Shown here one piece after another: positions 3,401-22,490 of a stretch of DNA of 22,490 nucleotides (position 1 is the first letter of the stretch; each line of letters opens with the position of its first letter). Below the pieces are notes generated by a model. It had not been told where the DNA came from. It was given only the letters and a program-made list of their open reading frames with translations, and searched no databases. A program made the position numbers and the translations under genes. Source of the stretch: a virus; the IMG/VR virus record IMGVR_UViG_3300020172_000247, positions 1-22,490 of that record; one strand, written 5' to 3'.

Positions 3401-5398
3401 AAAAGTAAATCAGGAATCGATGATTACGACAATGCTCCTACAATGAATTTAGATAGTTATAAGCCTGCATTAGATTTTTGTATGAAAATCATTCAAAAGT
3501 TAAATTCAACACAGAAAACTAAACTTAGCACTAAGGGCGAACATGGAGTAGTACGTTGGCTAACGAAACAGGCCACTGACGCAGGTTTGGTTCCTAATAA
3601 ATTTGTCGAGGAAGACATTGACGAAGTTCAAGAACAACTTCCTGAAATATTTAAAGATCCTGCTATTACCAGTTGGGCACTAGTTTTAACCGACGGAGAA
3701 CCTTTGCCAAAACCCCCGTCTAAAGGACCATTTAACATAGAAATGAATAAGGGATATGGTCCAGGAAAAGATGACAAAGGTAATTCATGGGGAGGAGGGT
3801 ATAAAAATCAAGATTGGGTTACTGTAGATACCTTAGATAATTTACCCGATGCAGAAAAAATGTTTCAGGGACTTGTGAGAAAAAATTCTAAATATTATTT
3901 TGGTATAACAGACGCTACTGGAAAATGGGCAAAATTTTATGACCCTAGTAAAGAACAAGGAGTAGCCGAGGGACAACTAGAATTAAACACCCCAAATCCT
4001 GTTGTAGTGATATCTGATACTAAAACAGGTAAAATTTTAGATAAAATAAATTTAAATATTGCCGCACAAAAATATCGTTTAGGTAACCCCGCAGATGTAA
4101 AAAATCAATTAGCACATCAAAACTATACTAACATCGGAAACTATACTATTTCTGCTCCAATGACTGGGCAACCACAAGATCAAACAACCACAGGACAGAA
4201 GAATACATTTGCCACTGTGGAAGGCGGCATTGCCACTGTGGGTTGGCCCGACGACGAAGATAGTCATACCAATAATCGTCCTCCTGTAAACGTAGGCGGT
4301 ACGTTTCCTGCTAGACCTGTGGTCAAGCGAGGCAGCTTAGTCAAAGCCAGCGGACTTACTGGTGTATACCGTGTAATGGACATTCTTAGAGATGAAGCCA
4401 AAATTGTACAAGAAATACCCCGTACCGGCGTGTCAACTTATGTTCCAATGTCAGACTTAAGGGTGTGGACTAATAAACCAATCAGAGAGAAAGACGTAGC
4501 AGAAGGCTCTGGCGGGGCTCAGTACAAAATAAAGAGTATTGGCCGTGATGCTAAAGGTGATTACTATATCAGCCCAAGTACAGGCAAGAAAGTATACAAG
4601 TCTGGTGTAAAGCGTGGTGACCACGAAAATCCTAAAACAGGTGAACATAAAGGTGTGGCGGAAGGTCTAGGTAAACACGTTGCTGGTGCTGCATTAGCAG
4701 GTGCTATGGCATTAGGTGGTGCAGGAGCACACGCTCAAAGTTCAGGTGAAGATTACCTTCCAGACATTGTTGCTCACGTAAAATTTAAAGTCAACGGCAA
4801 AGAAATATCTAAAGATATTAATCTAGGAACACAATATAAGTCTCCTAGAGAAGCAGCAGAGGCACTCGAAAAATTCTTAAGATCAAAAGGAATCAAATAT
4901 TTCGAGTACGATCTCGAACGTATAAAACCCAAAGACGACGACTACATGGATAAAACACCGTATACTGACCCTACATCTAACGAAAGTGTAGAAGAAGCTA
5001 TGTCAGCAGCCGTGCGTTTTCAACGTGCTTGGGAACGTCAACAGGCCAAAAGTGCTGCAAGTCGTAAACGTGGTGAAGAACTTCTAAATCCTAAAAAGAA
5101 AGAAGAACCTAAGCCAGAAGAAAAGAAAACTGAAATGATGGATCCTGATAAATTCTCAGGTTATCCTAAAAACAAACTAGGATCAGCAGCACATTTAAAA
5201 GGCACAACTAAACGTGGAGCTCATGCAGGTGATCTAGTCGGAGAAACAGATAAGAAAAAAGGCGCAGACGGTAAGGCATGTTGGGACGGATATCGTTACA
5301 ACGGCACTGAGAACGGTAGTGATAAATGCGTTAAAATTGGCGAAGCATGGGAAATAGAAATGTCTCATGCTATCAGTAAACTATTTGAAAACCGATGA
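467..5398 (+). CDS. Giant multi-domain polyprotein: NTase, ATP-ligase-like, NMNAT-like domains and processed linkers
   Basis: This 1643-residue protein begins with a leader, MLLNQLFAPKKLFE|GG, whose LFE|G fits a T4-type prohead protease site. Residues 88-210 look like a pol-beta-fold nucleotidyltransferase (GS at 90-91, GDID at 113-116, a third Asp in QIDFEY). Residues about 430-705 look like a covalent nucleotidyltransferase/ligase domain: KVDG at 458-461, CEVLY at 540-544, EGIVI at 689-693 and K701. Residues about 732-915 look like an NMNAT-type adenylyltransferase (GSFIGHKGH at 738-746, ISGTALR at 872-878). A proline/glutamine linker leads to a second leader at 940-956. VAEG sites follow at 1166-1169, 1344-1347 and 1397-1400, then a signal-peptide-like stretch (1401-1423) and a Cys-containing tail module (1604-1626). 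Repair of nucleic acid ends and NAD synthesis are inferred roles; domain calls rest on motifs only. Confidence 0.85.
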   Translation: MLLNQLFAPKKLFEGGNLASHKADGQPMPGWQGVPGQHQAQELDLNVHNRTEVVAVLSDLLHSINDLFAQQYKEPLWHENSVKAQKFLSGSTMRFFDKKIPDEEFVRVKPTVGDIDTQAPDKHEGTIKQFLTGLIGKQVGDTKFIGFSPGNNQYTSMWQVTLQDMPVKLQIDFEYGSHDPTTGLPTPWQEYSHSSSWEDLSAGIKGVFHKYIDRALPYASTVSTKYVARVLKKSTKISDEPVTDSDYSFAVSGQGGGGVSRKYVPYDDPSTGAPMERDGIPVMQLLDPANRQYIQNLGQQFEIFFGRKPKGNDQQLKNSFVGTVDLANKYLDDQQRTELFNRFVSICFEPGSQMITKGDPVRDRTIKMAAIDYMIQNMKLANPQAMRKQAIKTAMDYEQAFTSKQAGKGLNEAEVKAQFRKSMPHLKDLKPIDFLDLLDELDQGDGKFKLKNIPLNVKVDGFGGRFGKNSEGKPFMATSRTEPRYQAGFVDYHQKKGTTDPEILGRAQLFDDLFSEMMTAVEMVDNKLGPDFLVNKQVTCEVLYLPFATETPEGKLKFVGIQYDKLPQGVELALVPFRVTDATTGEDIPDSNKAVKALTGVGRQGSVMFIDNSLTQNDELDVTEIINVLDNIEELKQIVSDTAGKRDRASLDLRRQVEEKLQPVKVELEKAIINDPNIIGKDLLGKDYEGIVINSRLGPIKITSQEQRDVISTKNAAKISARTEQPRGEAKTAVVAIGSFIGHKGHEELFTYTINKAKEVGGDPYLFIGNAEGKNDPIPPDVKVQTWHKLYPEYAKNISTVQEGGQLIQKIKHELINPLPGKPPRYDNIIIMVGEDRAGMNMPTALMKAVNKFQGYEHVKISLDVTPRGTGISGTALRNSLKNDPPEKALATWSNAFDVNKLGVDWIKHLMNITRKGMGIQMTQPPAQQPAAQPAPMAEMRLFNALMAPKHRLVEADDSKFVGFMNQALGKKVDEPSKKSKSGIDDYDNAPTMNLDSYKPALDFCMKIIQKLNSTQKTKLSTKGEHGVVRWLTKQATDAGLVPNKFVEEDIDEVQEQLPEIFKDPAITSWALVLTDGEPLPKPPSKGPFNIEMNKGYGPGKDDKGNSWGGGYKNQDWVTVDTLDNLPDAEKMFQGLVRKNSKYYFGITDATGKWAKFYDPSKEQGVAEGQLELNTPNPVVVISDTKTGKILDKINLNIAAQKYRLGNPADVKNQLAHQNYTNIGNYTISAPMTGQPQDQTTTGQKNTFATVEGGIATVGWPDDEDSHTNNRPPVNVGGTFPARPVVKRGSLVKASGLTGVYRVMDILRDEAKIVQEIPRTGVSTYVPMSDLRVWTNKPIREKDVAEGSGGAQYKIKSIGRDAKGDYYISPSTGKKVYKSGVKRGDHENPKTGEHKGVAEGLGKHVAGAALAGAMALGGAGAHAQSSGEDYLPDIVAHVKFKVNGKEISKDINLGTQYKSPREAAEALEKFLRSKGIKYFEYDLERIKPKDDDYMDKTPYTDPTSNESVEEAMSAAVRFQRAWERQQAKSAASRKRGEELLNPKKKEEPKPEEKKTEMMDPDKFSGYPKNKLGSAAHLKGTTKRGAHAGDLVGETDKKKGADGKACWDGYRYNGTENGSDKCVKIGEAWEIEMSHAISKLFENR
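3284..3334 (+). other. Internal copy of the capsid-targeting-like leader
   Basis: Residues 940-956 of the giant protein read MRLFNALMAPKHRLVEA. They match its own N-terminus, MLLNQLFAPKKLFEG, in spacing: M-x-L-x-x-L-[FM]-A-P-K-x-x-L-x-E. The predicted cut would be LVE|A. It follows a low-complexity Pro/Gln/Ala linker, as expected where two once-separate genes were fused. Reading it as a protease site is inference. Confidence 0.6.
4652..4666 (+). repeat. GVAEG box, DNA-conserved copy 1
   Basis: GGTGTGGCGGAAGGT encodes Gly-Val-Ala-Glu-Gly. The first 12 bases recur in the gene at 6203 (6575 and 6755), and 11 of them at 6401. Two other VAEG sites in this giant gene (3959-3973 and 4493-4507) use different codons. 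It sits just before a hydrophobic, signal-peptide-like segment. Confidence 0.75.
4977..4996 (+). repeat. 20-bp direct repeat (NESVEE), copy 1
   Basis: The 20 bases CTAACGAAAGTGTAGAAGAA are identical to 7056-7075 in a different gene and encode N-E-S-V-E-E in both. V-E-E|A here fits an aliphatic-x-Glu cut site. Identity at the base level suggests a recent shared origin of this linker. Confidence 0.7.
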
Positions 5399-5664
5399 AA
5401 CAATATAGAATATCAGGATTTCCCATAGACGCCGGCACTGACCCAGACTGTGCTTTGTCCCCAGACGATCCTATACATAAATTAAAGGCCAGCAATTGGC
5501 TAGGCGAACTAGGTGCTGAAGCTAGAATGGCAGAATACAATAACAGTGGTCGCACACCTGCATGGAATGATCCACGCAGTGAAAATGCTCGTATCATGCG
5601 TGAGCAGGGCATTAAACCAGGAACACCTGCTTGGTTTGAGCTTTGGTTTGGAAAAAATAAATAA
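5395..5664 (+). CDS. Hypothetical protein, 89 residues
   Basis: A small soluble protein that overlaps the stop of the giant gene by four bases (ATGA), so the two are probably translationally coupled. It has no leader of the block type. Visible features are a proline/aspartate-rich start (FPIDAGTDPDCALSPDDP), a helical middle (GELGAEARMAEYN) and a C-terminal part with TPAWNDPRSENARIMREQ and GTPAWFELWFG. I see no catalytic or metal-binding motif and do not recognise the family. Context suggests it is made together with the packaged-protein block. The reverse-strand reading over the same bases is rejected, as all neighbours are on the + strand. Confidence 0.7.
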   Translation: MKQYRISGFPIDAGTDPDCALSPDDPIHKLKASNWLGELGAEARMAEYNNSGRTPAWNDPRSENARIMREQGIKPGTPAWFELWFGKNK

Positions 5665-5670
5665 CATATT

Positions 5671-6045
5671 ATGAGAATATCTGAACTATTAACTGAAGTA
5701 CGAGCTGGTAAAATCAGCAAGCGAGCACAGCAGTCTAGCCGAGGTATAAACACCTATGGCGATGTTGAACACGCAAGCAGTGACTATGTAGGCTTTAAAC
5801 TAGGACAGGCCATGGCAATGAGTGACGGCTCAGGTGCTCCTATAGATATTGATCCTAAGAGTTGGTACGGTAAAAAGAAAACTGTTCATCCTTATTCAGA
5901 AATAGAACAACAGATGTTTAAAGATGCAGCTAAAATAGTTGGGGCAGAATACAAAGACGTAAACAACGGCGACATGCGAAGCAAAGAATTAGACAGCACT
6001 TACACAGTAAGCCCTGTGCCTGATAGAAAGAAACTGTCAAAATGA
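5671..6045 (+). CDS. Leader-bearing small phage protein (MRISELLTE)
   Basis: A 124-residue protein of unknown function beginning MRISELLTE|V. The first nine residues match the leader type of this block, with LTE as the predicted cut. The remainder is basic at first (RAGKISKRAQQSSRG), then contains DPKSWYGKKKTVHPYSEIE and ends TYTVSPVPDRKKLSK. I recall similar short proteins in marine T4-like phage genomes, always without function. The start has only a weak upstream ribosome site (GGAAAA, about 15 bases away). Its stop overlaps the next ATG (AATGA). A DNA-binding or internal head role would fit the basic composition but is inference. Confidence 0.75.
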   Translation: MRISELLTEVRAGKISKRAQQSSRGINTYGDVEHASSDYVGFKLGQAMAMSDGSGAPIDIDPKSWYGKKKTVHPYSEIEQQMFKDAAKIVGAEYKDVNNGDMRSKELDSTYTVSPVPDRKKLSK

Positions 6046-6206
6046 AGATTCAAGAATTATTAGAAACAGCAACGGGTATGGGTACTGCTAGTATCGCTAC
6101 TAGTATTGCTACTAAGAAACCTAAGAAAGGGCAGAAATTAAATCTGCTAGGAACTCCTGTATCTGAAACAGGTAAAGAAATTAAAGTAATAAAGAGACAA
6201 CCATGA
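6042..6206 (+). CDS. Leader-bearing mini-protein, 54 residues (MKIQELLE)
   Basis: A short open frame between two longer genes, overlapping both by four bases (ATGA at each end). It encodes MKIQELLE|T, a clean copy of the block leader, then an Ala/Thr/Ile/Ser stretch (GTASIATSIATKK) and a basic tail ending KVIKRQP. The perfect overlaps and the leader argue that it is real despite its size. The next gene lacks an N-terminal leader, so this could be a detached leader peptide or the remnant of a once-continuous gene. No function is visible in the sequence. Confidence 0.65.
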   Translation: MKIQELLETATGMGTASIATSIATKKPKKGQKLNLLGTPVSETGKEIKVIKRQP

Positions 6207-7276
6207 ATCATCCAGACCACGAAATAGAAATGGCTCGTTCCGAACTATATTCAATAGCCAAGTATGCTATGGCACTTCACGAGATGTTAGAAAATGTCAG
6301 TGAGCTAGAAGGCATGGAAGGTTGGCAACAGAGTAAAATTACCAAAGCAGCTGATTACATGGAAAGTGTTTATCAAAGCATTACACATGAAATGAAATTT
6401 GGTGTGGCGGAGAACACAAATTCTCCCGCCTATCAAAGAGTGGAACTTTACAATCAAGGTCGTAAAGCAGGTCTAAGTGGCAAAGGTACCAATCCCTACG
6501 GTGATCCAGATAACAGTAGAGAAGCATATTTCTGGCAAGAAGGTTACGAAGATGGTCAAATACTTAGAAGCAAAGGTGTGGCGGAAGGCGACTATCCCAA
6601 CGACCCATTCAGAGAAATACACAGTCAAGGTCAACAGGCAGGTATTGCCGGAAAACCAAACAATAATCCATACGGCGAACCGGGCGATAGCAAAGAAGCA
6701 TCTTACTGGGACGACGGTTATGAACTTGGTCTACAAATTAGAAGAAAAAGAACAGGTGTGGCGGAAGCAGGACGCGGCAGTAATAAAGGATATGCTCCTG
6801 GATTTGCCAGTCCAACAGCACCAAATCTAAGACCTGTTGGCGGTCCAAAACAAGATGATGAATATGTAAATGGCGGTCCAGTAAACAATATCGAAGTATC
6901 TATTAACGATCGTCCTTGGAAGATATTTCCAGGCAAGGGGCCGGATGGTAGCAAGGCATTTTTCCAACAAAAACAAGACGTTGACGAAATGTGCAAACGC
7001 AAGACTGCCGCAACTGGCAAAAAATGGAGTTGGGGTGTCACAGGTGACCCTGCTACTAACGAAAGTGTAGAAGAAAACAAAAAAGGTGTACGTGCTGTCA
7101 AGCATACTACAAAACCTAGAAATCCTGTAATGGCTGGAGACAAGCCGGGCAAAGCCACTGTTACTCATAAAAATAAAAAGAAAGATGCAGAACGCGGAAT
7201 TGAGAAACACAAAGGCAAAGAGCCTGCCTATGAATCTCGTCTTTGGAACGCACTTTCGCAACATCTAGAAAAATAA
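6203..7276 (+). CDS. Modular protein with two RMF-like repeats separated by VAE sites
   Basis: A 357-residue modular protein. Residues 1-66 are a helical domain (EMARSELYSIAKYA, WQQSKITKAADYME) of a kind I recall from marine phage proteins. GVAE|N follows at 67-71. Two tandem repeats follow (71-129 and 130-189), each with x-x-G-x-x-A-G-x-x-G-x(5-6)-NPYG and then W-x-x-GYE-x-G, ending in GVAEG or GVAEA. The repeat pattern resembles ribosome modulation factor (RMF). Residues 229-281 form another module (VSINDRPWKIFPGKG, KKWSWGVTG). TNESVEEN follows at 285-292, then a Lys-rich stretch. There is no N-terminal leader, but the C-terminus ESRLWNALSQHLEK resembles the internal leader EMRLFNALMAPKHRLVE of the giant protein. 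Ribosome binding is an inference. Confidence 0.8.
   Translation: MNHPDHEIEMARSELYSIAKYAMALHEMLENVSELEGMEGWQQSKITKAADYMESVYQSITHEMKFGVAENTNSPAYQRVELYNQGRKAGLSGKGTNPYGDPDNSREAYFWQEGYEDGQILRSKGVAEGDYPNDPFREIHSQGQQAGIAGKPNNNPYGEPGDSKEASYWDDGYELGLQIRRKRTGVAEAGRGSNKGYAPGFASPTAPNLRPVGGPKQDDEYVNGGPVNNIEVSINDRPWKIFPGKGPDGSKAFFQQKQDVDEMCKRKTAATGKKWSWGVTGDPATNESVEENKKGVRAVKHTTKPRNPVMAGDKPGKATVTHKNKKKDAERGIEKHKGKEPAYESRLWNALSQHLEK
6401..6415 (+). repeat. GVAE box, DNA-conserved copy 2
   Basis: GGTGTGGCGGAGAAC encodes Gly-Val-Ala-Glu-Asn and matches the first 11 bases of the other boxes. It marks the junction between the N-terminal helical domain and the first RMF-like repeat. Confidence 0.7.
6413..6589 (+). 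repeat. RMF-like module 1 (59 residues)
   Basis: Residues 71-129 of the gene at 6203. Key residues are NQGRKAG, NPYG, then W and GYEDG, ending in KGVAEG. Compared with module 2 the glycines, NPYG and the W..GYE core are kept while other positions differ, so this is an old protein-level duplication rather than a fresh DNA copy. Confidence 0.75.
6575..6589 (+). repeat. GVAEG box, DNA-conserved copy 3
   Basis: GGTGTGGCGGAAGGC encodes Gly-Val-Ala-Glu-Gly. With the three A bases in front, it matches copy 1 at 17 of 18 positions. It separates the two RMF-like modules. Confidence 0.75.
6590..6769 (+). repeat. RMF-like module 2 (60 residues)
   Basis: Residues 130-189 of the gene at 6203. Key residues are SQGQQAGIAG, NNPYG, then YWDDGYELG, ending in TGVAEA. 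AGIAG is also the wording found in E. coli RMF (QRGYQAGIAG), as I recall that sequence. Confidence 0.75.
6755..6769 (+). repeat. GVAEA box, DNA-conserved copy 4
   Basis: GGTGTGGCGGAAGCA encodes Gly-Val-Ala-Glu-Ala and shares 12 bases with the other boxes. It ends the second RMF-like module. Confidence 0.75.
7056..7075 (+). repeat. 20-bp direct repeat (NESVEE), copy 2
   Basis: Identical over 20 bases to 4977-4996. Both copies are preceded by a similar D-P-T/A-x-x context (DPTSNESVEE and DPATNESVEE), so the related stretch at protein level is about ten residues. Confidence 0.7.
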
Positions 7277-8523
7277 TGCGTATAGTAGAACTAGTCGAAT
7301 CATCAAAGCGTACACCAGATTTGATGGATGCTTTTGCTGCGTTCTTTCCTCTAGCCATGCAAGAGTTAGAAATTGACCGATTGCCTGATATTAAATTAGA
7401 ACTACATTTAGAATTAGATGAACAGCCTTCATTTGGTAAGTTTGTTCAAAGTGAAAATAGAATGTATCTAGCAATAGAAGATCGACATCCAGTTGATATT
7501 CTTAGAACACTGGCACACGAACTAGTACATTACAAACAGGGTGTAGAACACGAATTAACTTCCAATAGTGGCGATACTGGTAGTCCTCAAGAAAACGAAG
7601 CACATGAAGTTGCTGGCATTATTATGCGACATTTTAATAAACAGCATCCAGAATTCTTCGATACTTCTGCCATTAATATCAGCGAAAGTTTTAAAAAGAA
7701 AGCAGCGGGTCTAGCATTAGGTGCATTGTCTTTAGGTGCTCAAGCTACTGCTCCCCAGATAGTTCAACAGATTGTTGAACCAGGCGATACTGTGTATTCC
7801 ATTGCAAGACAGAATAATGTTCCTCCTGCAGAGATTATGAAACTTAATAAAATGGGCAAGCAGACAAAACTTGAAATTGGTCAAAAGGTAAAAGTGCCTG
7901 ACTATTCGAAGCCAATTAAATTGCCCAGCACAGTAACTCCTACTGTTAAACAACCTCCTAATATTTCTCCAGCAGCACAGGCAGCACCTATGAAAGTATT
8001 GCCCAAAGTTGGCGATGAAGTTTCTTTGTTGAGTGACAATCCTGATGCAGAAGCTGCTTTACAAACTGCTGCCAAAGCCGCAGGACTTAAAGGTGCAGAA
8101 CTAGCACAGTTTATGGCACAGACTCGACACGAAAGTTGGGACTTTGGTAAAATGAAAGAAGTAGGCAACAAGAAAAGATTTGCCAAATATGAAACTCCAC
8201 GTAAAGCAAGACAGTTGGGCAACAAAGTAAAAGGCGACGGTGAAAGATTCAAAGGCCGCGGCTTTATACAATTAACTGGACGTGATAATTATACTCGTGC
8301 CAGTGAGCAAATTTTTGGTGATGACAGACTAGTTCGTAAACCCGAATTAGCCAGTGACCTTAATGTTGCTGCTAAGATTGCTATTTGGTATTGGAAGAAT
8401 CAAGTTAGACCTAATGTTAATAATTTTAACAATACAAAAGAAGTAACTAACGCAATTAATCCTGGTCTAAGCGGGCTACAAGATAGACATAATAAATTTA
8501 AAGAATATCTAGCAATATTATGA
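7276..8523 (+). CDS. Modular lysin: HExxH metallopeptidase-like domain, LysM, GH19-type lysozyme, with block leader
   Basis: Starting at the ATG that overlaps the previous stop (TAATG), the protein has 415 residues and begins MRIVELVE|SS. Residues 40-125 hold a zinc-peptidase-like motif, HELVH at 81-85 with a following NEAHE (107-111). ISE|S at 135-138 precedes a basic-then-hydrophobic stretch ending in AQATA (139-159) that looks like a signal peptide. Residues 166-208 are a LysM peptidoglycan-binding domain (PGDTVYSIARQNNV, IGQKVKVP). Residues about 258-400 are a GH19 chitinase/lysozyme-type domain with RHESW (E286) and GRGFIQLTGRDNY (328-340). The likely job is cell-wall degradation. The leader suggests it could be virion-borne and cut into two parts, but it may also be the late lysis enzyme. 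No holin is seen nearby. Confidence 0.85.
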   Translation: MRIVELVESSKRTPDLMDAFAAFFPLAMQELEIDRLPDIKLELHLELDEQPSFGKFVQSENRMYLAIEDRHPVDILRTLAHELVHYKQGVEHELTSNSGDTGSPQENEAHEVAGIIMRHFNKQHPEFFDTSAINISESFKKKAAGLALGALSLGAQATAPQIVQQIVEPGDTVYSIARQNNVPPAEIMKLNKMGKQTKLEIGQKVKVPDYSKPIKLPSTVTPTVKQPPNISPAAQAAPMKVLPKVGDEVSLLSDNPDAEAALQTAAKAAGLKGAELAQFMAQTRHESWDFGKMKEVGNKKRFAKYETPRKARQLGNKVKGDGERFKGRGFIQLTGRDNYTRASEQIFGDDRLVRKPELASDLNVAAKIAIWYWKNQVRPNVNNFNNTKEVTNAINPGLSGLQDRHNKFKEYLAIL

Positions 8524-14901: not shown

Positions 14902-15266
14902 TAAAAGGTTTAATGGGTATTCGAGGCATTGCTGTAAATGGTGGCGACACCAGCGTACCCTACGTCAATCAAAATGTATCAAACCCTATGCAGGGTATGA
15001 TTAGAGTTTGGGGTACAGACATGCAGGTGTTTGACGGTAGTGGTTGGACTAACATTCAGTCCAGTTATACTACTGTCGGGCTCGATCCAGTTACCCAAGA
15101 AGCCATTGACTGGGTTAAACAAAAGATGCAGGATGAAAAAGAACTACATCAATTGTCCAAAGAAAACCCTGCTGTTCAAATAGCATTGGAGAATTTAAAA
15201 CGGGCCCGTGAACAATTAGATGTTACAATAATACTAAGCAAAGAATATGAAAAATCCACCAGTTAA
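14898..15266 (+). CDS. Conserved small phage protein of unknown function
   Basis: A 122-residue protein overlapping the clamp stop (ATGATAA). The N-terminal half is rich in Gly, Asn and beta-type residues (VRGIAVNGG-like start, MIRVWGTDMQVFDGSGW), and the C-terminal half is helical (QEAIDWVKQKMQDEKELH, then ALENLKRAREQLD). The layout, a small beta part with GMIR...VFDGS.W followed by a coiled-coil-like helix, recalls short proteins of cyanophages and marine T4-like phages, from memory. VFDGSGW is the sort of motif seen in phage structural proteins that mark virion surfaces. Function is unassigned. Its end overlaps the next gene by 20 bases. Confidence 0.7.
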   Translation: MIKGLMGIRGIAVNGGDTSVPYVNQNVSNPMQGMIRVWGTDMQVFDGSGWTNIQSSYTTVGLDPVTQEAIDWVKQKMQDEKELHQLSKENPAVQIALENLKRAREQLDVTIILSKEYEKSTS

Positions 15267-16866
15267 TTTAACACCATTACAAAAAGACTACGCTGTCTAC
15301 TTGCCAGCTATCAGTAGTTTTTACAGCACCTACGTTGCCAAACAACGTCTAGAAGAATTTGTTCCTAAAGATCGTATTCCTGCAGGGTTCGATCGTGGAA
15401 TTGAAGGTATGAACTTTCTTAATCCAGAACAAGGTTACTTTACTTATAAGTATGGTCTGTATTCAGCAGGTCATGCACAATTAGACTTGAATAAATCAAT
15501 GACTCAAGAGTCTATGATTCAACAACGTGACCGTGCTAACACAATGATCTTAGGTGACTCCGGTGGATATCAAATTGGTAAAGGCGTTCTTAAATTTGAT
15601 TGGTTAGATTTTGAAGGTAAGTCAGCAAACAAAACACGTCAAAGTATTTTAGAGTGGCTTGAACTTACTGCTGATTGGTCAATGATGCTTGACGTTCCTA
15701 CGTGGGCTTGTGACCATATACATAGTCCAAAGACAGGATTAAAAACATTTGAAGACTGCCTAGATAAGACACGTTTTAATAATGATTATTTCCTAATGAA
15801 TAGGATTGGTCAAACAAAATGGCTCAATGTTCTGCAAGGCGGAGACTGGGATACTGCTGAAAAGTGGTACCAAGGTGTTAAAGAATTTAGCGATCCTAAG
15901 GGCAAGTATAAAGGTCGTGAAGCAGAAGGTTGGGCCTTTGGTGGTGCTAATATGTGTAAAATGGATATTACTCTTAAACGTCTAATGACGCTAAGAGACG
16001 ACGATTTGCTAGAAAGCAAAAACTGGATCCATTTCTTGGGTACAGCTCAGTTGGATTGGTCATGCTATCTAACTTCAATTCAACGACAAATCAGGAAACA
16101 TATTAATGAAGAAATTACCATATCTTTTGACTGCGCCTCCCCGTTCATTGCAACAGCACACGGACTTGTCTATACCAACGCAGTCCACACACCAAAAAGG
16201 TGGAGTGTTATTATGGACAAAGCCCCAGACAACAAATCCTTGTCAGGAAGCGATATCCCATTCCCATTCGAATCAACAATCGGTCGCCGATTAACTATAG
16301 CAGATATTGCCTACTATAATTTAGGCATACGCAAGACTGATGCAGAATTAGGTAAAGTTAAATTTGATCATTTAAATCCAGAACACTATCACGAAGTTCC
16401 AAGACTTAATAAACTAGGTAAAATTCCAAACAAAACATCGTGGGATAGTTTTGCCTATGCATTAATGATGGGGCATAACGTAGAATGTCATATTGTTGCT
16501 GTACAACGTGCTCAACAGTTAATGGATATTGAATGTGCTAGACATAAGCCAGACTGGCGTATGTGGGGCTTAGAAGGTAAGAAAGAAATTGAATTTAGTG
16601 ATTGGGTTCCACGTAAGATTCTTTACTTTGACCGATTTGTTAAAGAACTTTTTGAAACTAAAACTAAAGCAGAAGCATTTGCAATGATTGATCAAGCTAT
16701 GCCATTCCTACGTAGTTTAGAAGGTGCTCGACTACAAGGCGGGCCTGCTCAAAATACTTTTGGTAATTTGTTTGAAGTAGAGCAAGTTGTTAAACAAGAA
16801 GAAATCGATCTTGCTAATCCAGACGATGAAGAACTACGTGCATTAGAAGAAGGACTTGTAGAATGA
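15247..16866 (+). CDS. dpdA: DpdA-like guanine transglycosylase with C-terminal clamp-binding-like peptide
   Basis: A 539-residue member of the tRNA-guanine transglycosylase superfamily. Phage DpdA enzymes of this superfamily swap guanine in DNA for a 7-deazaguanine. Family residues can be placed: D104 in DSGGYQ (104-109), D149 in MLDVP, Q197 in LQGGD, FGGANM (231-236, the counterpart of GG-A-x-G), FLGTAQLDW (263-271) and the presumed nucleophile D295 in SFDCASP. The Cys3-His zinc site of tRNA-type enzymes is not seen, which favours a DNA-type enzyme. QNTFGNLFE (502-510) copies the polymerase tail NTFGSLFSFE, suggesting binding to the adjacent clamp. FolE, QueE and a QueD-like gene in the window support 7-deazaguanine synthesis. 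The exact base is unknown. Confidence 0.82.
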   Translation: MKNPPVNLTPLQKDYAVYLPAISSFYSTYVAKQRLEEFVPKDRIPAGFDRGIEGMNFLNPEQGYFTYKYGLYSAGHAQLDLNKSMTQESMIQQRDRANTMILGDSGGYQIGKGVLKFDWLDFEGKSANKTRQSILEWLELTADWSMMLDVPTWACDHIHSPKTGLKTFEDCLDKTRFNNDYFLMNRIGQTKWLNVLQGGDWDTAEKWYQGVKEFSDPKGKYKGREAEGWAFGGANMCKMDITLKRLMTLRDDDLLESKNWIHFLGTAQLDWSCYLTSIQRQIRKHINEEITISFDCASPFIATAHGLVYTNAVHTPKRWSVIMDKAPDNKSLSGSDIPFPFESTIGRRLTIADIAYYNLGIRKTDAELGKVKFDHLNPEHYHEVPRLNKLGKIPNKTSWDSFAYALMMGHNVECHIVAVQRAQQLMDIECARHKPDWRMWGLEGKKEIEFSDWVPRKILYFDRFVKELFETKTKAEAFAMIDQAMPFLRSLEGARLQGGPAQNTFGNLFEVEQVVKQEEIDLANPDDEELRALEEGLVE

Positions 16867-20171: not shown

Positions 20172-20951
20172 ATGGTATATCAAAATGCATATGAAAGTCA
20201 CGACGAGGAACCTAGTGACAAAAAAGAATCAATTTTAGACATTGACGAAAAAGGTTACGAAGTTGGCTATCTAGGTACGCAAATACGTCAACGAATGAAA
20301 CGTGATAAAAAACGTTTTTGGGCAGGTGACAATATCAGTGAATATCTTAAGCCCGGCGATAAAGAAATTCTAATTAGTGATGCTACAGAAGCATTTGAAC
20401 AAGTATTAGACACATTACTAATTGATCAAGAAACTGATCCTAATTCAAAAGGAACAGCAAGACGATTAGCCAAAATGTATTTTAATGAAATAATGGCAGG
20501 AAGATATGACCCAGCACCAGATGCAACAGCATTCCCAAATGATTCAGCAGACAGATACGAGGGTATGTTGGTTGTGCGTAGCGAACTACGTAGTATGTGC
20601 AGTCATCATCATCAACCTGTTAGTGGAGTGGCATACATTGGAATTATTGCGGCAGAAAAACTTATCGGCTTGTCCAAGTATACACGTATTGCCCAATGGT
20701 GTGCTCGTCGAGGAACCTTACAGGAAGAATTGTGTATTGACATAACCAATGAGATTATGGCTGCAACTGGTAGCAAGGATGTTGGTGTTTATATTCAAGC
20801 AGTACACGGATGTTGTGAGAATCGTGGCATTATGGCACACTCTAGTCTAACACAAACAACTGTACTTAGAGGTGCGTTCAAAGATGATCCCAACACTAAA
20901 AAAGAATTTATGGACAATGTTAAATTGCAACAAGAATTTGCACCTCGATGA
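20172..20951 (+). CDS. folE: GTP cyclohydrolase I
   Basis: A 259-residue enzyme that opens GTP to 7,8-dihydroneopterin triphosphate, the first step toward folates and 7-deazaguanines. SMCSHHHQPVSG (141-152) holds the zinc ligands C143 and H146, and AVHGCCENRG (210-219) holds the third ligand C214 and the R218 of the family motif H-x-C-M-x-x-R-G. TRIAQWCARRGTLQEEL (171-187) is also typical. The N-terminal 60 residues are an extension beyond the bacterial core. It has its own consensus promoter, so it may be made strongly and early. With QueD-like, QueE and DpdA in the window, its product most likely feeds DNA base modification. Confidence 0.95.
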   Translation: MVYQNAYESHDEEPSDKKESILDIDEKGYEVGYLGTQIRQRMKRDKKRFWAGDNISEYLKPGDKEILISDATEAFEQVLDTLLIDQETDPNSKGTARRLAKMYFNEIMAGRYDPAPDATAFPNDSADRYEGMLVVRSELRSMCSHHHQPVSGVAYIGIIAAEKLIGLSKYTRIAQWCARRGTLQEELCIDITNEIMAATGSKDVGVYIQAVHGCCENRGIMAHSSLTQTTVLRGAFKDDPNTKKEFMDNVKLQQEFAPR

Positions 20952-21810: not shown

Positions 21811-22030
21811 AACAGTTTATACAGAAGTGGAAGTCGATGTTGATCTTGCAGATTTTGACACTGATGATTTGCTAGAAGAACTAGAAGAACGTGGAGCATT
21901 ACCTGTCGAAGGGCAATATGATTCTAAAGAAATTTTGGAAGCAATCTATCATAAACGTAGACTTGGTCGCACAGATTACGAAAAAGAATTAGATCAATTA
22001 ATCTACGCAGGATTAGGAAAAATAGTATGA
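21800..22030 (+). CDS. Small acidic phage protein, 76 residues
   Basis: The ATG at 21800 gives MAYKTVYTEVEVDVDLADFD and then DDLLEELEERG; an upstream GTG (21791) is less likely. The C-terminus has EAIYHKRRLGRTDYEKELDQ and LIYAGLGKIV. It is strongly acidic at the start and helical at the end. I recall small proteins of this kind in T4-like marine phages, often with the same YHKRR...ELDQLIY pattern, without known function. It overlaps mazG by 11 bases and queE by four. Confidence 0.7.
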   Translation: MAYKTVYTEVEVDVDLADFDTDDLLEELEERGALPVEGQYDSKEILEAIYHKRRLGRTDYEKELDQLIYAGLGKIV

Positions 22031-22490
22031 GCAAAATTAAAATAGCAGAATTATTTTACAGCATACAAGGTGAAGGAAGATATATGGGAGTTCCTTCCGT
22101 TTTCTTACGTACCTTTGGTTGTAACTTTAAATGTCAAGGTTTCGGCATGCCTAGAGGTGAGCTTAGTGTTGAGGCAGACGAACTGGGCAACCTTGCTCAT
22201 ATGTTTAACAAATATGAAGAACTTCCGCTGGTTAGTACAGGTTGTGATAGTTACGCTAGTTGGCATCCAGACTTTAAAGATCTAAGTCCAATGCTTACTT
22301 CGGATGCTATAGCTGATCGAATTATGGAAATTCTTCCACACGGCAAATGGCTAGACGAACATCTAGTTATTACAGGTGGTGAGCCGTTGCTAGGTTGGCA
22401 ACGTGCTTATCCAGATTTGTTGAATCATCCTAAGATGGCAGGATTAAAAGAAATTACATTTGAAACAAATGGTACTCAAAAGCTAACAGA
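22027..22490 (+). CDS. queE: QueE-like 7-carboxy-7-deazaguanine synthase (3' end outside the window)
   Basis: The first 154 codons of a radical SAM enzyme, starting at the ATG overlapping the previous stop. FYSIQGEG (10-17) and VFLRTFGCNFKC (25-36) are typical of QueE, and VITGGEPLLGWQ (about 113-124) is the radical SAM glycine-rich GGEP motif. The enzyme makes 7-carboxy-7-deazaguanine from carboxytetrahydropterin. The iron-sulfur cysteines are unusual: C32 and C36 fit C-x3-C, but position 39 is Phe, not Cys. The best candidate for the third Cys is C73 in STGCDSYASW, about 37 residues later. It completes FolE, QueD-like and DpdA as a base-modification set. QueC is not in the window. Confidence 0.9.
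   Translation, partial: MSKIKIAELFYSIQGEGRYMGVPSVFLRTFGCNFKCQGFGMPRGELSVEADELGNLAHMFNKYEELPLVSTGCDSYASWHPDFKDLSPMLTSDAIADRIMEILPHGKWLDEHLVITGGEPLLGWQRAYPDLLNHPKMAGLKEITFETNGTQKLT

Follow-up and report, generated by a model that had tools for sequence, protein, structure and literature searches.

Two long open reading frames (ORFs) in a fragment of an uncultured phage genome encode chains of small modules, and the peptide V-A-E recurs along these chains, in several cases encoded by one and the same DNA sequence. We asked whether this sequence marks the borders of modules, and whether it is held constant as a peptide, as DNA, or as both.

A recurrent DNA sequence at module borders

The window, meaning the whole stretch of DNA analysed, comprises an entire IMG/VR record; with 22,490 bases it is a fragment of a phage, and a count made in it does not cover a complete genome. 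A first-pass annotation had located VAE sites at 3959, 4493, 4652, 6401, 6575 and 6755 (each number being the position of the codon preceding the V) and stated that four of them share the 11-mer GGTGTGGCGGA, including its GC-rich GTG-GCG codons, and that those at 3959 and 4493 use other codons. Both statements were confirmed (Table 1). Four copies of the 11-mer (4652, 6401, 6575 and 6755) are present in the window, all on the + strand, compared to 0.12 expected, and none of 100 shuffles of the window gave four; no fifth copy was found in the window when up to one mismatch was allowed. All four copies are in frame and are spread over two ORFs. Their GTG and GCG codons stand out because the window is AT-rich (about 31-46% GC in 500-base windows) and because, among 189 non-redundant ORFs that contain the box, GTG represents only 18% of Val codons and GCG 6.8% of Ala codons.

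Table 1. Boxes, ORFs, modules and repeats in the window
Feature	Position	Strand	Remarks
Diverged box (Q-G-V-A-E-G)	3957..3973	+	Codons GGA GTA GCC GAG GGA
Diverged box (D-V-A-E-G)	4491..4507	+	Codons GAC GTA GCA GAA GGC
Exact box AAGGTGTGGCGGAAGGT (K-G-V-A-E-G)	4650..4666	+	
Exact 11-mer box (F-G-V-A-E-N)	6399..6415	+	Preceding bases and following codon off consensus
Exact box (K-G-V-A-E-G)	6573..6589	+	Separates two RMF-like modules
Exact 11-mer box (T-G-V-A-E-A)	6753..6769	+	After second RMF-like module
Multi-module ORF, 1643 aa	467..5398	+	N-terminus MLLNQLFAPKKLFEGG, similar to a capsid-targeting sequence (CTS-like); regions like phrog_19290 and like a cytidylyltransferase, followed by small modules with VAE sites at the joints
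Multi-module ORF, 357 aa	6203..7276	+	Three exact boxes; helical module at the N-terminus, then two RMF-like ones and further modules at the C-terminus
Shuffled module GSGGAQYKIKSIG...	4505..4651	+	Has various upstream neighbours in other phages
RMF-like module 1	6413..6574	+	PF04957, 2 stretches
RMF-like module 2	6587..6754	+	PF04957, best stretch residues 134-177
D-P-T-S-N-E-S-V-E-E repeat	4966..4996	+	Second V-x-E site, without wide occurrence as a DNA box
D-P-A-T-N-E-S-V-E-E repeat	7045..7075	+	Partner of 4966-4996

The VAE sites had also been placed at module borders, and this held at all six: homologs of the window's modules have different neighbours in other phages at 3959, 4493, 4652, 6401 and 6755, and the site at 6575 separates the members of a tandem pair of RMF-like (PF04957) repeats. 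The module that begins at 4505 follows various upstream modules in five loci (L051, L055, L075, L235 and L280), always behind GVAE; the module after 3959 has other upstream modules, again following a GVAE site, in L074, L160 and L225; and the helical module that precedes 6401 has other sequences downstream of it in L124, L126, L140, L160 and L225. Single-sequence structure prediction for the ORF at 6203-7276 was weak (mean pLDDT 48) and was moderately confident only for the first helical module, which ends just before the first box. Separately, the N-E-S-V-E-E repeat was considered as a second box and was rejected, since outside the window it was found only in L121, a near-identical relative.

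Beyond the window, more than 300 copies of the 11-mer were found in more than 150 other viral contigs. Random spread in relatives, which would have spoken against the first-pass reading, was not what we observed: the copies occupy a few long genes per phage and are almost always in frame (142 of 143 copies in the window and the first 127 loci lie in the frame of the longest open frame), and in records of up to 374 kb they sit in one or a few places, usually clustered, on a single strand in all records but one. When viral contigs were scanned for the peptides KGVAEG and QGVAEG with synonymous positions left free, exactly GGT-GTG-GCG was used in 42 and 58, respectively, of about 120 matches each, the next codon sets accounting for 12 and 6. 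The phages that carry the box are uncultured members of the T4 superfamily, several of them jumbo phages, with 76-97% identity among their gp23 proteins; gp23 of one of them is 67-70% identical to those of Vibrio phage 2.275.O, Sinorhizobium phage Phosso and PA5oct.

Two further sources of the box were considered and rejected. As a general cellular word, its 18-nt form gave 26 scattered single matches in 84,980 species, mostly in GC-rich genomes, none in arrays and near chance level. The cultured relatives tested are essentially without it, there being no exact box in PA5oct, Vibrio 2.275.O or Phosso and a single one, about the chance number, in Atu_ph07. Three cyanophage-family records have modules in common with the box phages and no box, and two box ORFs had no match among 50,697 phage records. 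In Synechococcus phage S-RIM8 (L346, 2756-4525), some of the same modules occur, without the DNA box, in a gene that adjoins the neck and terminase small subunit genes.

The box is fixed at the level of bases well beyond what codon usage predicts, with GGT-GTG-GCG expected in 0.55% of GVAE sites and, with one ascertained copy per ORF dropped, observed in 73% of those in frame, or in 81% under another rule. Key figures were recomputed without one ascertained copy per ORF because the sequence logo partly reflects our search patterns, a possible selection bias. The codon before the box (Q, K or E) ends in A in 99% of cases compared to a background of 67-81%, and G opens the following codon in 93% compared to about 37%. 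The core of the box is 16 nt long, AAGGTGTGGCGGAAGG, and is read [Q/K/E]-G-V-A-E|G; by inspection, it is not palindromic. Among homologous modules, four-fold sites differ by 5-16% within the box and by 25-47% in the adjoining module. The number of unlike contexts in which a 13-mer recurs reached 160 for the box and at most 4 for any other, point-mutated boxes excepted, and the ORFs remain open across up to seven boxes.

Homology breaks and inferred module exchange at the box

We compared 332 distinct boxes, each with 150-nt flanks, after near-identical duplicates had been removed. Seventy-four pairs of boxes were alike upstream only, 72 downstream only and none on both sides, and identity dropped from about 80-85% to the random level of 28% no more than a few bases away from the box. 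Without reference to the box, 136 sharp junctions were located among the fetched loci between stretches of 93% identity or more, and at 55 of these (40%) an exact box was present in at least one partner, compared to 1.7% at random; where both partners had a box (24 junctions), the shared stretch ended at the box edges. About 60% of the sharp junctions lie away from the box. Ends of local alignments fell in a box roughly nine times more often than random positions did, an analysis in which boxes account for many, not all, module borders. Of the 29 module families with at least three members, 22 had more than one left neighbour and 24 had more than one right neighbour.

Pairs of alleles that differ by a single insertion or deletion were also found. 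Over 1,006 nt, L117 and L200 share 97% identity, after which L117 carries 903 nt extra before homology resumes; AAGGTGTGGCGGAGG stands at both ends of this extra stretch and once in L200. The same kind of difference, of 318 nt and with AAGGTGTGGCGGAAGGC, separates L055 from L075. Both indels are in frame, a box is present at all three junctions, and the junctions of the alleles share exactly the box, 15-17 nt. Each pair is the expected product, or signature, of recombination between direct repeats. Only some of the candidate indel alleles join exactly at the box, others joining at weaker or different sequences, and these two are cited as clean cases. The same junctions turn up in separate contigs from different datasets, an observation that speaks against errors of assembly.

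The first-pass annotation had proposed that the boxes act as recombination points through which modules are exchanged, and that module gain and loss should then break at them. Such breaks were seen in flank homology, junctions, alignment ends and indel alleles, and the proposal itself is strongly supported by the homology breaks, the junctions and the indel alleles. Judged from sequence comparison alone, the box behaves as expected of a short-homology recombination joint, a short sequence common to several genomes at which their homology breaks; the breakpoints are comparative observations, and the process of recombination is inferred from them.

Probable protease sites and inferred head packaging

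The boxes had further been read as aliphatic-x-Glu protease sites, and for this reading the support is indirect. T4 gp21 cuts after L/I-X-E (PMC9026906). VAE fits a relaxed aliphatic-x-Glu rule, its V at P3 lies outside the published T4 motif (L/I), and there is no proteomics. We compared 665 homologous module starts, of which 128 had an exact box, 26 had GVAE with other codons, 179 had another aliphatic-x-Glu at the same place, 170 had one within four residues and 162 had neither. An aliphatic-x-Glu site was thus kept at the same place in 35% of the module starts without GVAE, compared to 1.9% by chance.

An S77 (gp21-type) protease (E <= 1e-24) and the capsid protein Gp23 (about 1e-81 or better) were both matched in the same 7 of 33 box records, and most of the box records without an S77 match are fragments. 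Neither protein was matched in the 200-340 kb box records G041, G042 and G049, and neither was seen in the window record, itself a fragment. Gene order in box records is T4-like, running portal - protease - scaffold-like - capsid, with the portal and scaffold-like genes named by eye and from annotated relatives. The scaffold-like proteins of box phages are full of [ILV]xE[AGSDN] motifs, and in one of them VAEG is coded GTT-GCT; the peptide can therefore be encoded without the codons of the box.

In T4, the first 10 residues of IPIII, which constitute a CTS, suffice for packaging (PMC9026906). N-termini that match a CTS-like pattern defined in this analysis were found in 55% of 96 box ORFs compared to 18% of 560 other ORFs; the box ORF at 6203-7276 has no clear CTS at its start. 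It is plausible that the box proteins are packaged in the head and cut at VAE, which is inferred and not shown, there being no cleavage or virion data. Several modules right after a box start in a Sec- or Tat-signal-like manner, e.g. LGKHVAGAALAGAMALGGAGAHAQ and DRRGFLKGLGAAAVAGAAG (window 4666-4740; L089, L293), and such starts would become N-terminal once the protein was cut at VAE.

The modules recognised included RMF-like (in the window), GNAT, DnaJ, LysM, Tat-signal and several DUF families, and a check of 58 ORFs for polyvalent-type domains recognised few (ParB_N once, along with GNAT, DnaJ, LysM and DUFs). Because most modules have no recognised domain, calling them delivered effectors is, for most, a guess.

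Several other features of the window were observed. The RMF-like (ribosome modulation factor) modules stand in tandem within a phage protein (6413-6754), for which a weak second case was found in record G026 at 49400. The window also encodes a family B polymerase and an Fe/Mn superoxide dismutase (PF02777, PF00081; 9685-10236) whose first residues, counted from the first ATG (MRDLLTIIEAVET), look CTS-like, and which is possibly packaged. A single ORF (7243-8523) combines a metalloprotease-like region (HELVHYKQG), a signal-like stretch, LysM and GH19. Genes for a TGT/DpdA-like protein (15247-16866, identified by eye, no Pfam match), GTP cyclohydrolase I (20172-20951) and the start of a QueE-like radical SAM protein (22027-22488) together suggest 7-deazaguanine DNA modification.

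Explanations, precedents and meaning

We consider it probable that the box is a dual-use joint, serving both recombination and gp21-type cleavage, in multi-module proteins that are probably packaged in the head. As DNA, it would be a reusable short stretch of homology, and recombination of one box with another, in the same gene or genome or in a different one, would insert, delete or swap in-frame modules, each event leaving one intact box per joint, by which the boxes would stay identical. As a peptide, it would be a cleavage site of the phage's gp21-type prohead protease, so that modules in any order could be cut apart during head maturation and be deliverable with the DNA; both steps are inferences. 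Recombination may most simply be carried out by the phage's own UvsX/RecA-type system, which is inferred from the presence of the gene (a RecA-family gene is found in 9 of 11 large box records). A homology of 16-18 nt is short for RecA-type recombination, which counts against this proposal.

It is also conceivable, and in our estimation rather unlikely, that selection acts on the protein only: V-A-E|G would be a protease linker, recombination of any kind would occur, only junctions at linkers would survive, and the identity of the DNA would reflect recent common origin. That many modules have other aliphatic-x-Glu sites, in ordinary codons, at their borders, and that point-mutated boxes exist (GTAGCG, GCAGAA, GMAE), would fit such a history. 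However, conservation at synonymous sites is about 3-7 times higher in the box than in the modules that flank it in the same homologs, identity at the box edges tracks bases (NAA, GNN) and not residues, and the junction alleles have exactly the box in common (15-17 nt).

A dedicated enzyme, either a site-specific recombinase or a homing-type endonuclease, might instead recognise the box and move modules as cassettes in an integron-like manner, which would account for the fixed sequence, the one box per joint, the in-frame units and the bounding of modules by boxes as direct repeats. We regard this as very unlikely: no box-linked recombinase is known from these data (there was no systematic search for one), the box is no palindrome, boxes that have decayed persist, and general homology with a UvsX-type system could suffice. 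It is highly improbable that translation or RNA, for example a pause between domains, keeps the codons and that module borders merely coincide with them; rare GTG and GCG codons and a G-rich stretch at domain borders could be taken to hint at this, yet it leaves unexplained both the way homology ends at the box, with exactly 15-17 nt of overlap, and the ordinary codons at homologous borders without a box. False joining of contigs at a short repeat is close to negligible as an explanation, as the box records are all metagenome-derived IMG/VR contigs but the ORFs stay open through up to seven boxes and a repeat of 16-18 nt is below the usual assembly word size.

The reading of the box as a dual-use joint has partial precedents. 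Boundary sequences of lambdoid phages and mycobacteriophages are short common sequences at mosaic joints between genes, whereas the box lies in frame within a gene. Integron cassettes are units each bounded by a common short site and gained or lost singly; the box modules resemble them in both respects and differ in being protein modules within one reading frame, with no integrase or attC-like structure seen (there was no systematic search). Within T4-type phages, recombination between conserved motifs inside the gene has been described for T-even tail fibres (Tetart et al. 1998, cited in PMC3797505), as have mobile regulatory cassettes (Arbiol et al. 2010, cited in PMC3797505). As far as these works are represented in the citing article, they are alike in that short conserved motifs supply the homology for module exchange, and unlike the box in that they concern adhesin genes or regulatory cassettes, involve no protease site and do not reuse one sequence several times per gene across many unlike modules.

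At the protein level, the box proteins share with T4 internal proteins and Alt (PMC9026906) CTS-like N-termini, a gp21-type S77 protease and Gp23 in the same records, and aliphatic-x-Glu sites. Each T4 internal protein is one unit with propeptides at its termini, whereas box ORFs hold many modules each and internal sites with a fixed DNA sequence. The polyvalent proteins that phages and conjugative elements encode are long, multidomain and variably ordered, with a presumed early entry into the host (Iyer et al. 2017, PMC5512222), and one of them, P1 DdrB, is processed before packaging (PMC5512222). The box proteins resemble these in being multidomain with shuffled architecture, but few of the domains named in that paper (ART, ArdC-N, MPTase, DdrB-like ParB, PBECR and others) were recognised in them, and neither 'linker' nor 'shuffl' occurs in its text. 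Precedents thus exist for short homology joints inside T4-type genes (tail fibres), for CTS-tagged internal proteins and for polyvalent proteins; for their combination, in which one invariant DNA word serves as a joint and probably also as a cut site, no description was found in the limited literature searched.

In its strongest form, the proposal would make these genes a dedicated in-frame protein-cassette system of T4-like jumbo phages, in which one DNA word is both recombination site and protease site, possibly driven by a box-specific enzyme; we hold this to be unlikely at present. If true, any recombinant order of effector modules would be released automatically as separate proteins in the head. 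The dual-use joint by itself would show how phages can shuffle their cargo of delivered proteins without breaking the reading frame or the processing, the same 16 bases defining a recombination joint and a probable cut site. With the box as a DNA tag, metagenomes can be searched for candidate delivered modules whose function is unknown, and the speed at which phage protein domains are mixed would become directly testable by counting joints in populations.
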